Below, in pieces: positions 46,697 through 51,196 of a DNA stretch of 61,871 nt. The position numbers and the translations under genes are program-made. Location: the NCBI GenBank assembly GCA_019358975.1, contig JAHHIL010000027.1:1-61871 (forward strand), read 5' to 3'. This stretch comes from Trichocoleus desertorum ATA4-8-CV12 (GTDB lineage: Bacteria > Cyanobacteriota > Cyanobacteriia > FACHB-46). Below the pieces are notes generated by a model. That model had not been told where the DNA came from and did no database searches. It saw only the letters and a list, made by a program, of their open reading frames with translations. Position 1 is the stretch's first letter; each line of letters begins with the position of its first letter.

Positions 46697-48304
46697 TTAC
46701 TTCAGCACACCTAGCAATTCGCCCGTCTGAGGAGTCGGCAGTTGGGGTGCCGTTAAGATCCGGGAGAACAAACGAGAGGGAGATTGCTCTGCTACGAGAG
46801 GGAGAGAGTTTTTGGCTTGAGCTGCGATCGCCACCGTCTTGACATCGTAGGTTTGGGTCGCCAGTTTGGGATACAAACCGATGCCAATGATGGGCACAAT
46901 CAGGCAAGCCGTGATAAACACTTCTCTTGGCTTCGCATCCCAGAATTTAATCTGCGCCATTTCAGGGCTAGCTGTACCGTAGAACACTTCCCGCAGCATC
47001 GAGAGCAGGTAGATGGGAGTGACAATTAATCCCACCGCCGACAGTAACACCACAACCACTTTGAAGGGGCCGCTGTAAGCTTCACTGCTGGTAAAGCCGA
47101 GGAATACGCTCAACTCGCTGACGAAGCCACTCATTCCGGGTAGCGCCAGAGATGCCATTGAGCCAGCAGTAAACAAAGCGAACACAATTGGCATTTGCTT
47201 CGCCATACCACCCATCTTGTCCATCATCAGGGTATGAGTCCGCTCGTAAGCCACCCCAGACAAGAAGAACAGAGCCGCTGCAATTAAGCCGTGAGAAATC
47301 ATTTGCAGGATCGCTCCACTCAAGCCTACCTCTGTGAAGGAGGCAATCCCAATCAGGACAAAGCCCATGTGGGAGATAGAAGAGTAGGCCATGCGGCGCT
47401 TCAGGTTGGTCTGGGCGAAGGCAGTCAAACCCGCGTAGATGATGTTGACTACACCGAGCAGAGCCAATACAGGCGCAAAGTAAACGTGAGCATTGGGTAG
47501 CATTTCCACGTTCATGCGGATCAGGGCATAGCCGCCCATCTTCAGCATCACACCTGCCAACAGCATGGACACAGGCGCAGGCGCTTCACTGTGAGCATCC
47601 GGTAGCCAAGTGTGTAGGGGAAACATGGGGAGCTTGACCCCATAGGCAACCAGAAAGGCCGCGTAGACAATCAGCTCGAAAGTTAACGAGTAGTCCTTCA
47701 GGGCTAGTTCGCGCATGTCGAAGGTGACATTGTCACCATAGAAGGCCATTGCAAAAGCCGCGACCAAAATAAACAGCGAACCAACTGCGGTGTAGAGAAT
47801 GAACTTGGTTGCTGCGTAGAGACGGTTTTTCCCACCCCAGACCGAGATGAGCAGATAGATGGGGACGAGTTCCAACTCCCACATCAAGAAGAACATCAGC
47901 AGGTCTTGAGCGGCGAATACTCCGATCTGGGCACTGTACATCGCCAGCATCAGGAAGTAAAACAGGCGAGGCTTGTGGGTAATGGGCCAAGCTGCCATGA
48001 TGCCGAGGGTCGTGACCAAGGCAGTCAGAATTATCAGAGGCATCGATAAACCATCCACGCCAACCGACCAGTTAAGACCTAGCTGGGAAACCCAGGTATA
48101 GCTTTCAACGAGTTGTAGCTCAGGATTTTGGAAATCGTAGTGCTGCCAGAAGGTGTAGAAAGTCAGGGCTAGATCCACTAGACCAACCCCTAGGGCGTAC
48201 CAGCGGACAACTTTGTTGCCTTTACCAGGTAGAAGGGGGATCGGCAGGGATGCTACGAGGGGCAGCAGGATGATGGTAGTGAGCCAAGGAAAATCAGTAC
48301 TCAT
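46697..48304 (-). CDS. ndhD: NAD(P)H-quinone oxidoreductase subunit 4 (NdhD)
   Basis: NdhD is an antiporter-like proton-pumping subunit of the thylakoid NDH-1 complex, used in respiration, cyclic electron flow and, with some paralogues, CO2 uptake. The 535-residue protein has about 14 membrane helices and the conserved proton-channel residues in [18 protein letters not shown], and the lysine/histidine helix [19 protein letters not shown]. It resembles the NdhD1/NdhD2 group rather than the CO2-uptake NdhD3/D4 type, but this is uncertain. No ndhF neighbour is present, and a long leader region precedes it. Confidence 0.93.
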
Positions 48305-48680
48305 TAGTCAAGACCTATAAATCGGTCGTTTCGTTGCGAAGGGCATTCAGGGTGCTGAATCAATCCGTCTCGATTTGATAGGAGGTCTACCGATTGAAGG
48401 GAGGTCAGACCAGATGGTGCTAGGCGCTCTCGAAATCGATGATTGAACAATTGGGATAGCAGCTTAACCAGTAGCCCAGGCTAGAGGGAATTTGCTTCTC
48501 CCACCGCTCCTGTAAAACGTTTCCTTGACAGACTGAGTCAACACGATTGGGACAAATAAGAATATATACTCAACTGAGGATATATACCTAAATACATAGT
48601 ATTGCACTTTGTTAAAAAATGTAAACTGCTTTGTTTAAATTTGTGGTGAAGATTGGGTTGTTTAGTTTGGCATTACAAAT
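48305..48680. other. Long upstream region of ndhD
   Basis: These 376 bases are free of genes. They carry an AT-rich inverted repeat at 48563-48584 and a taggaggtc-gggaggtc pair at about 48380-48410. The ndhD promoter must lie here. Confidence 0.5.
48563..48584. promoter_or_regulatory. AT-rich inverted repeat upstream of ndhD
   Basis: Arms tatatactca (48563-48572) and tgaggatata (48575-48584) are complementary at nine of ten positions around a two-base centre. It is about 260 bases upstream of ndhD on the minus strand and could be an operator or part of a promoter. The regulator is unknown. Confidence 0.35.
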
Positions 48681-48776
48681 CCGAGCCTTGAGGGCACCTG
48701 CCCTCAAACTCCCGCTGAGGGACGGTTGCGTCCCCCAGACCCCCTCCAAACGAATTTAACGGTGGGTGTTTCGGTG
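48681..48776 (-). repeat. Dispersed repeat family A, copy 5
   Basis: It runs from ccgagccttgagggcacc through tgccctcaaactcccgctg and agggacggttgcgtccccc to ccccctccaaacgaa and gtgggtgtttcgg. It is in the same orientation as copy 1 and abuts the Uma2 pseudogene. Confidence 0.85.
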
Positions 48777-48786
48777 CTTATTTTTT

Positions 48787-48977
48787 ATTTGACAACAGTG
48801 AAGGATGTTGGTGATGACGCGAGTTACGGATTGATCAGGCTGAGAATTTCCATTGTCCAGTCAGGATAGGCGGCAAACATGCTCGCGATCGCGCTGTCTG
48901 CGTTGGTGGGAATACGCTCTCAGGTGAATACAGCAATGTCAGGAACAATGGAGCGATCGCTAATTACATCTCGTAGG
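48787..48977 (-). pseudogene. Uma2 (DUF820) endonuclease-family gene remnant
   Basis: Minus-strand translation gives LRDVISDRSIVPDIAVFT, a stop, then ERIPTNADSAIASMFAAYPDW and TMEILS, the core of a Uma2/DUF820 protein. The stop is TGA where the family has Trp (TGG), a nonsense change. Just after EILS a single missing C shifts the frame; adding it back restores PDQSVTRVITNILHC. The N-terminal half is gone, replaced by a repeat (gtgtgtgagcgcagcacac). It is therefore a decayed gene. Uma2 families are highly expanded in cyanobacteria. Confidence 0.8.
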
Positions 48978-49102
48978 GTGTGTGAGCGCAGCACACGCAC
49001 TAAATTTGTCGCGTCCCTGCGTTACGGCTTGTCTTAAATCTAGGGAATCATAGTTAGTAGAGAATTGTTACCGTCGCATACGCAGCGGCATCAAAAAGCA
49101 AA

Positions 49103-49873
49103 ATGGAATTTCAATATGGTGTGATTAGGCAGCTGAACGAACTTAGCTATCATCCAGATGTAGAGTCCAAACCTGGAGTTTATTTATTTTTTCATGCTAC
49201 GGATGGCCCTGTTGCTTACGTAGGAAGATCTGGGAATTTAAGAGAGCGGATTCGTAATCGAGGCTATGCCTATTACACCTTTATGCACTGCAATACTCTT
49301 CATGAGGCTTATTGGTATGAGTGCACCTTGTTCCATACATATCGGCCAACATTGGACAATAAAATTCATCCTGGAAGGCTAGAGAGCGGTGAAAATGACT
49401 GTCCTGTGTGCAGACCCAAAAACCTTCTTCGGCAAGGATTGAAAAGGATTGACAAGGCAAATTATATGAAAGCCATTGAAGAGTTCAGCCAAATTATTCA
49501 AATAAGTGCTGATGCTTATTTCAAGCGCGGCCTTGCTCGATACAAATTGGGGGATAATCACGGTTCTATTCAAGACTTCACTCAAGCAATTCGGATTGAT
49601 CCCGGATTTAGTAGAGCATATAAAGGCCGAGGTAATAGCCACTATAAAATGGGTAATCACAGACAAGCAGCTAGAGACTATACTCAAGCTACGCGAATCA
49701 ATCCTACAGATGCCTCACTCTATTACAACAAAGCTAAGGCTCATCAGCTACTTCAAGAAAACGATATAGCTCTAGAAAACTTTAAAAAAGCCTCCAACCT
49801 TTTTCTTCAGCAGAATGATTTGAGCAAGTATAAGCAAACACTCGATCAATTAGAGAAGCTACAAGGTTTTTAA
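49103..49873 (+). CDS. GIY-YIG domain fused to TPR repeats
   Basis: The 256-residue protein has a GIY-YIG nuclease-like domain (about 20-100): PGVYLF matches GIY, YVGRSGNLRERI matches YIG with the catalytic Arg, and YECTLFHTYRPTLDN carries the metal-binding Glu and the final Asn pattern seen in UvrC. CPVC follows at about 98-101. Residues about 110-250 form three to four TPR units (AYFKRGLARYKLGDNHGSIQ, AYKGRGNSHYKMGNHRQAA). No gcgatcgc octamer is seen within the gene, unlike most genes of comparable length here, and it looks AT-richer than its neighbours, which suggests transfer. Function is unknown; it may be a DNA- or RNA-cutting protein with a protein-docking arm. Confidence 0.78.
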   Translation: MEFQYGVIRQLNELSYHPDVESKPGVYLFFHATDGPVAYVGRSGNLRERIRNRGYAYYTFMHCNTLHEAYWYECTLFHTYRPTLDNKIHPGRLESGENDCPVCRPKNLLRQGLKRIDKANYMKAIEEFSQIIQISADAYFKRGLARYKLGDNHGSIQDFTQAIRIDPGFSRAYKGRGNSHYKMGNHRQAARDYTQATRINPTDASLYYNKAKAHQLLQENDIALENFKKASNLFLQQNDLSKYKQTLDQLEKLQGF

Positions 49874-49933
49874 GGCATAAAAATAAGGTGAGCTACTGCC
49901 CACCCTACTTACAAGAAAAGTTGTTAGTAACGA

Positions 49934-51196
49934 TTAACCAAAGATACTGCCGAAGAACTCGATCGCTTCTTTGAGGGATTCGATGAAGACATCAATTTCT
50001 TCGCGGGTGTTGTAGAAATACAAGCTCGCCCGTGCCGTAGACTGTGCTCCTAAATGGCGGTGCAGCGGTTGGGTGCAGTGGTGTCCCGCCCGGATGGCGA
50101 TTCCTGCTTGATCCAAAATGGTTGAGAGGTCGTGGGGGTGAACTGCGCCTACCGTGAAAGCAGCGAGAGCCGCGCGGCCTTTGCCATCTTCCGTGGGTTT
50201 GGGGCCATAGGTACGAACTTCGGGTAGCTCAGCTAAGCGCTGATACAGGTACGCCGTCAGTTCTTCCTCGTAGGTGTGGATTTTGTCTATCCCAATGCCC
50301 ATGAGGTAATCCACCGCAGCACCGAGTGCGATCGCTTCGGCAATGGCAGGGGTGCCCGCTTCAAACTTGTGGGGCAGGTCGGCGTAGGTGGAGTGATCGA
50401 GAAACACATCCGCGATCATCTCACCACCACCCAAGAATGGGGGCATGGAGCGCAGCAGAGCCAGCTTGCCGTAGAGGAAACCGATTCCAGTCGCCGCGCA
50501 CATTTTGTGACCAGAGCCGACGAGCCAATCGCAGTCAATATCCTGCACGTCCACTGGCATGTGGGGCAGACTTTGGCAGGCATCGATCAGCACTCTTGCG
50601 CCATGTTGGTGAGCGATCGCGCAAATCTCCTTAACGGGGTTGATGCAGCCCAAAGTATTGGAGACATGCACGACGGAGACGAGTTTGGTTTTCTCAGAGA
50701 TCAGCGATTTGAATTGCTCTAAGTTGAATTCTTCGGTTTCGGTTAACTCGACGAATTTCAGCACCGCACCCGTTTTCTGCGCCACCAACTGCCAGGGAAT
50801 CAGGTTGCTGTGGTGCTCCATCACCGTCAGGATGATCTCGTCGCCTTGCTTCAGCGTGCTCAGACCCCAAGCGTTCGACACCAAGTTGATCGCTTCACTG
50901 GCGTTGCGGGTGTAGATGATTTCTTGCCGAGAGGCCGCATTGACAAACTTAGCGACCTTATCTCTTGCGCCTTCGTAAGCATCTGTCGCCCTCGAACTGA
51001 GCGTATGCACTCCTCGGTGGACGTTGGCGTTGTCGTGCTCGTAGTAGTGCTGCAAAGCTTGCAACACCGCTTGGGGTTTTTGCGAAGTAGCCGCGTTGTC
51101 CAGATAAACCAGAGGCTTGCCATTGATTTCCTGATCCAAAATGGGGAAATCAGCACGGACTTTGGCGGCGAGAGTTCTTTCCTGAGCGATGGTCAT
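49934..51196 (-). CDS. sufS: Cysteine desulfurase SufS
   Basis: SufS takes sulfur from cysteine and passes it to the SufBCD scaffold for Fe-S assembly. The 420-residue PLP enzyme has the Schiff-base Lys in [12 protein letters not shown] and the active-site Cys in [10 protein letters not shown], followed by the short group II loop. It is the last gene of the suf run and starts four bases after the sufD stop, so it is co-transcribed with sufCD. The SufE-type sulfur carrier is not in the window. Confidence 0.96.

Follow-up and report, generated by a model that had tools for sequence, protein, structure and literature searches.

A GIY-YIG/TPR fusion gene at a variable site

We analyzed a 61,871-nucleotide stretch of the Trichocoleus desertorum ATA4-8-CV12 genome (here called the window), which is one contig of a 6.06-Mb assembly comprised of 90 contigs. 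One open reading frame on its forward strand is a real ORF of 256 amino acids that couples a GIY-YIG domain to TPRs (Table 1). The gene had been described as AT-rich in the original prediction, and this is what was observed: its GC content of 40.5% (GC3, 35%) is the lowest among the 39 non-overlapping window ORFs of at least 150 amino acids, with the remaining 38 ranging from 48 to 55%. The GIY-YIG part has a GC content of 42.5% and the TPR part 39.1%. The lack of a HIP1 octamer, which had been offered as a further argument, carries less weight; 237 of 1222 sampled 771-bp window stretches also are without HIP1, so its absence from the fusion gene says little.

Pfam analysis of the flanks revealed an NADH-dehydrogenase antiporter-type subunit gene on one side and a class-V aminotransferase gene on the other, which we take to be ndhD and sufS. 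The gap between the same two genes in a congener (G001, locus L058) is occupied by a different frame of 119 amino acids that has no Pfam match; in a second congener (G002), the two flanking genes lie on separate contigs. The gap is a variable cargo or insertion site, and this, together with the foreign composition of the gene, upholds the earlier view of the locus as accessory. The repeat noted beside the gene is present also. It has dozens of dispersed copies in two congeners (81 to 97% identity), and its core has three matches within the window. No decayed Uma2 gene could be confirmed, as the 30-amino-acid minus-strand piece at 48830 to 48919 has no Uma2 match in Pfam.

Table 1. Positions of features of the fusion gene and its upstream flank in the window
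Feature	Position	Strand	Basis
Dispersed repeat upstream of fusion gene, ~97 bp	48677..48773	+	Genome and window matches
GIY-YIG/TPR fusion gene, 256 aa	49103..49873	+	Open frame; GC outlier
GIY-YIG core, residues 20-91	49160..49375	+	Family alignment, UvrC match, two-sequence AlphaFold model
Y27 of GVY, aligned with UvrC Y19	49181..49183	+	Invariant, 14/14
Y39 of YVG, aligned with UvrC Y29	49217..49219	+	Invariant, 14/14
R49, predicted catalytic, aligned with UvrC R39	49247..49249	+	Invariant, 14/14
E73, predicted metal binding, aligned with UvrC E76	49319..49321	+	Invariant, 14/14
H78, N86, H89-P90, C100-P-x-C103 signature, probable metal site	49334..49411	+	Invariant, 14/14
Degenerate first TPR, residues 105-135	49415..49507	+	By eye; no separate Pfam stretch
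Three TPRs, residues ~136-168, 170-203, 204-237	49508..49813	+	Pfam TPR_1/TPR_2/TPR_8
C-terminal capping helix, residues 238-253	49814..49861	+	Helix 240-253 in low-confidence model

The GIY-YIG domain and its active site

Searched alone, the window protein matched PF01541 with an E value of 0.0045 and 17.7 bits, below the cut-off of 22.6, which indicates a divergent GIY-YIG domain. A profile of 14 family members was more informative. Its best match to Thermotoga maritima UvrC had an E value of 2.7e-4, with both tyrosines, the arginine and the glutamate in register, and its PDB matches below an E value of 0.001 were UvrC N-domains only (1ycz and 1yd2 to 1yd6). This alignment places R49 and E73 on R39 and E76 of UvrC, in agreement with the original prediction of a UvrC-like module with intact Arg and Glu. 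The GxY and YxG tyrosines of the GIY-YIG superfamily also are present, along with Arg and Glu at the catalytic positions.

Inspection of the 14 distinct aligned sequences (window numbering) showed that G25, Y27, Y39, G41, R49 and E73 are invariant, as are H78, N86, H89, P90, C100, P101 and C103. The latter group includes a tail after the catalytic Glu, N-x(2)-H-P-x(8-11)-C-P-x-C, that is found throughout the subfamily and in the window protein. Judged from its sequence, this HP...CPxC tail is probably a structural metal site. The only doubt about the active site concerns position 53 (R49 + 4), which is Arg in the window protein and in the protein of a Leptolyngbya MAG (G308), His in most others and Y43 in UvrC; we count it against the explanation favored below.

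The full-length AlphaFold model, built from a two-sequence input, is of low confidence (mean pLDDT, 51). The GIY-YIG domain modeled alone reached a pLDDT of 65, with the order strand, strand, helix, strand, helix. Foldseek found no match to either model at an E value of 0.001. VIA-align 2 aligned the domain model with T. maritima UvrC entries (Z, 4.8 to 5.3 over 75 residues; 2.5 to 2.9 A), level with an unrelated ligase in the same ranking (Z, 5.4 over 61 residues). The modeled resemblance to the UvrC N-domain is modest, and supportive rather than decisive. The low model confidence and the lack of a significant Foldseek match weigh against the explanation favored below.

The TPR arm

Pfam TPR_1 matched the window protein with an E value of 1.9e-20 (72.2 bits versus a cut-off of 27.8), and three stretches passed. 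A degenerate fourth repeat precedes them and can be seen by eye, so the C terminus is predicted to be made up of about four TPRs, consistent with the three or four originally proposed. No close donor for this arm was found in the same genome; the best-scoring other matches were generic TPRs of 33 to 39% identity. The repeats are too generic to name a binding partner, and this also counts against the favored explanation.

Distribution of the GIY-YIG subfamily

A tblastn search with the first 111 residues returned four plasmid records and one phage record. Genome samples were drawn at several levels, and these draws overlap. Among 388 genomes of the class, 12 had a match at an E value of 1e-3, mostly to partial GIY-YIG or UvrC sequences; a six-sequence profile matched 17 of the 388, four of which (including the source genome) had a full-length match above 100 bits. 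No full-length member was found in the two congeners. Full-length matches occurred in 2 of 42 genomes of the family of G308, and matches above 90 bits in 8 of 217 genomes of the family of G374. In the phylum sample, 2 of 386 genomes matched. A widespread housekeeping family, which the original prediction had named as a finding that would count against it, is rejected on the grounds of this patchiness. A viral origin was rejected as well: two scans of viral contigs, with the window protein or A2 as the query, found no relative. In tblastn searches of phages, the GIY-YIG domain gave one partial match and a cassette relative none.

In all, 15 loci were collected; a Nocardiopsis plasmid contributed two and a Salinigranum plasmid one, and the others came from the genome samples. 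All subfamily members other than that of the window are stand-alone GIY-YIG proteins; the TPR fusion is found at the window locus only (0 of the 14 others). The claim that the combination was unfamiliar therefore stood as far as the fusion itself is concerned, but the gene is not an isolated oddity, because its subfamily is mostly paired with a GHKL ATPase (see below). The only near relative is the Leptolyngbya MAG protein (46 to 47% identity), from an organism of a different family, and the two form a clade of their own on a long branch (support, 99/100). Given this separateness, a cassette role does not follow for the window protein by descent, and we count this against the favored explanation. 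A conserved genomic position in the MAG was considered and rejected, since the neighbors differ.

On the plasmid of the haloarchaeon Salinigranum (L018, 3935 to 4282), the subfamily member is unannotated. It is probably the A1 member that matches Pfam DUF7508.

A GHKL ATPase accompanies the nuclease gene in most relatives

A gene for a GHKL ATPase adjoins the nuclease gene at 11 of the 15 loci (G148, G374 twice, G404, G559, G489, G402, G573, G485 and two in Nocardiopsis), although one Nocardiopsis locus was found via its ATPase and cannot be counted as independent evidence of pairing. Eight loci, covering two cyanobacterial families and the actinomycete plasmid, showed the order HTH, GIY-YIG, ATPase; at the second of the Nocardiopsis loci, the match to HTH is weak (E value, 1.4e-5). 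In G402, G573 and G485, the ATPase gene comes first and no HTH gene was found. In G573 the ATPase gene is interrupted by a transposase; that of G485 is truncated, and that of G399 is a fragment. The four loci without an adjoining ATPase gene are those of the window, the Leptolyngbya MAG, G496 and Salinigranum; the G496 locus has flanks resembling those of G485 (recA and exonuclease VII), for which alone the flanking genes were assigned by Pfam. One of the two Nocardiopsis nuclease genes (plasmid CP054934; L070, 3519 to 3980) is unannotated and lies between genes for a hypothetical protein and an ATP-binding protein.

The three cassette ATPases that were scanned contain HATPase_c_3 (E values, 1.5e-19 to 1.4e-17). 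The cassette ATPases match MzaB best, over the ATPase half (E values, 3.5e-12 to 3.5e-20), and one also resembles the BbrUII/HgiDII restriction enzymes, far below the family cut-offs. The G148 cassette has a type II restriction endonuclease gene in its vicinity, and that of G374 is situated between the HmaA and HmaC genes. Inside this Hma-type region, the G374 cassette is carried by two identical inverted copies (L062/L063), each 11,970 bp or longer (about 12 kb) and lying some 5.5 Mb apart on one contig; the second copy is near the contig end, and so an assembly effect is possible.

At an E value of 1e-10, the ATPase was detected in 36 of the 217 genomes of the G374 family and in seven of its eight nuclease-bearing genomes. 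Three genomes (G505, G520 and G471) have kept the HTH gene and a closely similar ATPase gene with no nuclease match. Compared with G404, they are missing approximately 390 to 410 bases, which correspond to most of the nuclease gene. In G471, the only one read base by base, remnants of both ends of the nuclease gene remain, indicating that the gene was lost rather than gained. The nuclease is a separable part of the cassette, and three sister cassettes have lost its gene alone. No GIY-YIG gene was found beside the more distant ATPases on plasmids of Photobacterium, Vibrio (two) and Rhodobacteraceae SC52 or beside one viral-contig ATPase; a Treponema locus was judged by annotation only.

The ATPase has no match in the window or in genomes G000, G001, G002 and G308. 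A search for an ATPase remnant beside the fusion gene (48301 to 49950) found none, nor was there an HTH gene or HTH remnant. With no ATPase in its genome and no HTH neighbor, the window protein is a member of the domain subfamily but not of the cassette, which again counts against the favored explanation. The neighborhood comparison that had been suggested along with the domain-pair search gave an ATPase partner in most of the relatives and none at the window locus.

Comparison with known systems

No naming match for the window protein was found in NCBIfam or PADLOC; PADLOC PDC-S14 matches the GIY part weakly (E value, 1.4e-4), but that entry describes no function. The protein shares with the UvrC N-terminal domain the two aligned tyrosines, the arginine and the glutamate and perhaps, going by the modest model, a similar fold, but in place of the remainder of UvrC it has the HP...CPxC tail and the TPR arm. 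It does not have the architecture of full-length UvrC (TIGR00194, 14.1 bits versus 285), and TPRs follow the domain. The CMoRE/PD-T4-3 proteins likewise carry an N-terminal GIY-YIG domain and a C-terminal second module in one polypeptide (PMC12923530). Unlike these, the window protein reads GVYLF at residues 25 to 29, without the third tyrosine of GIYxY, and has TPRs rather than a recognized modification-sensing domain.

The pairing of the relatives with a GHKL ATPase recalls the MORC/paraMORC ATPases of restriction systems (PMC2292703) and VcSduA (PMC12137116), but other nucleases are employed there, and an ATPase is missing from the window locus. The terms GIY and URI occur at 0 places in PMC2292703. 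The cassette ATPases score only 64 to 72 bits against an NCBIfam cut-off of 850 for the MzaB that they match best, and no other Mza gene was found among the neighbors scanned. A URI/GIY-YIG nuclease beside Dnd genes is mentioned in PMC10853773. Neither the GIY-YIG/TPR fusion nor the GIY-YIG/GHKL pairing was found in the family libraries and the available parts of the open-licence literature searched. GHKL ATPases with other nucleases in restriction systems are already known; what is new here is a subfamily with an HP...CPxC tail that is mostly GHKL paired, and the odd fusion is tied through it to a recurring, apparently unnamed GIY-YIG/GHKL ATPase/HTH cassette of cyanobacteria and actinomycetes.

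Proposed role of the fusion protein

Our tentative explanation is that the window gene encodes an acquired orphan nuclease in which the TPR arm takes the place of control by an ATPase and which probably acts against invaders. Most relatives have a GHKL ATPase of the MutL/MORC type as a neighbor, often together with an HTH protein, and presumably act with it as an anti-invader cassette. There the ATPase would clamp DNA and license cutting by the small nuclease, a scheme proposed for GHKL and nuclease restriction proteins (PMC2292703 and PMC12137116). The window lineage lacks the ATPase, and its nuclease carries a TPR array fused to the C terminus. As the only control module available, this arm most likely has a protein partner, which would bring or license the nuclease. 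GIY-YIG nuclease activity and horizontal acquisition of the compositionally foreign gene belong to this same explanation and are put forward just as tentatively; DNA is assumed to be the target because of the kinship with UvrC, and the anti-invader role is suggested by the setting of the relatives together with the gene's patchy occurrence and foreign composition. The defence role raised in the original prediction accordingly draws on the relatives, most of which are paired with the ATPase, and not on the window gene's own surroundings. That prediction was confirmed as an observation and partly supported as an interpretation.

Other explanations were weighed against the same data. An acquired nuclease without its ATPase could simply have been retained by chance as a drifting remnant, perhaps inactive. 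Orphan or decayed cassettes are common (in G573, G485, G496 and G399), Arg occupies position 53 and the gene is not at the same site in congeners, but the frame of 256 amino acids is open, every subfamily-invariant residue is kept, and the two orphan-clade members have retained all of these residues at 46 to 47% identity in different families. We regard such a remnant as unlikely. A little less likely still is a self-standing type IV-like restriction nuclease that cuts modified phage DNA alone, its TPRs serving to oligomerize the protein or sense a phage protein. Single-gene GIY-YIG defence proteins of the CMoRE/PD-T4-3 kind are known (PMC12923530), and PD-T4-3 and PD-lambda-1 are listed with PF01541. 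The window gene also is single and of foreign composition, but it lacks the third tyrosine and has TPRs where CMoRE has its C-terminal domain. TPRs are not known to read DNA marks. A DNA repair or regulatory protein acting on the cell's own chromosome, and drawn by its TPR arm into a complex for repair or transcription, would fit with UvrC N-domains being the nearest solved relatives. We consider it improbable given the full-length family in just four of the 388 class genomes, the lack of a full-length member in two congeners and the foreign composition.

Within the explanation of an acquired orphan nuclease under TPR control, a bolder and rather doubtful proposal is that the gene is a streamlined, one-gene form of an undescribed GIY-YIG/GHKL anti-invader system, its fused TPR switch replacing the ATPase switch. 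The natural nuclease-only deletions and the TPR-fused orphan are ready variants with which the control of a small nuclease can be tested.
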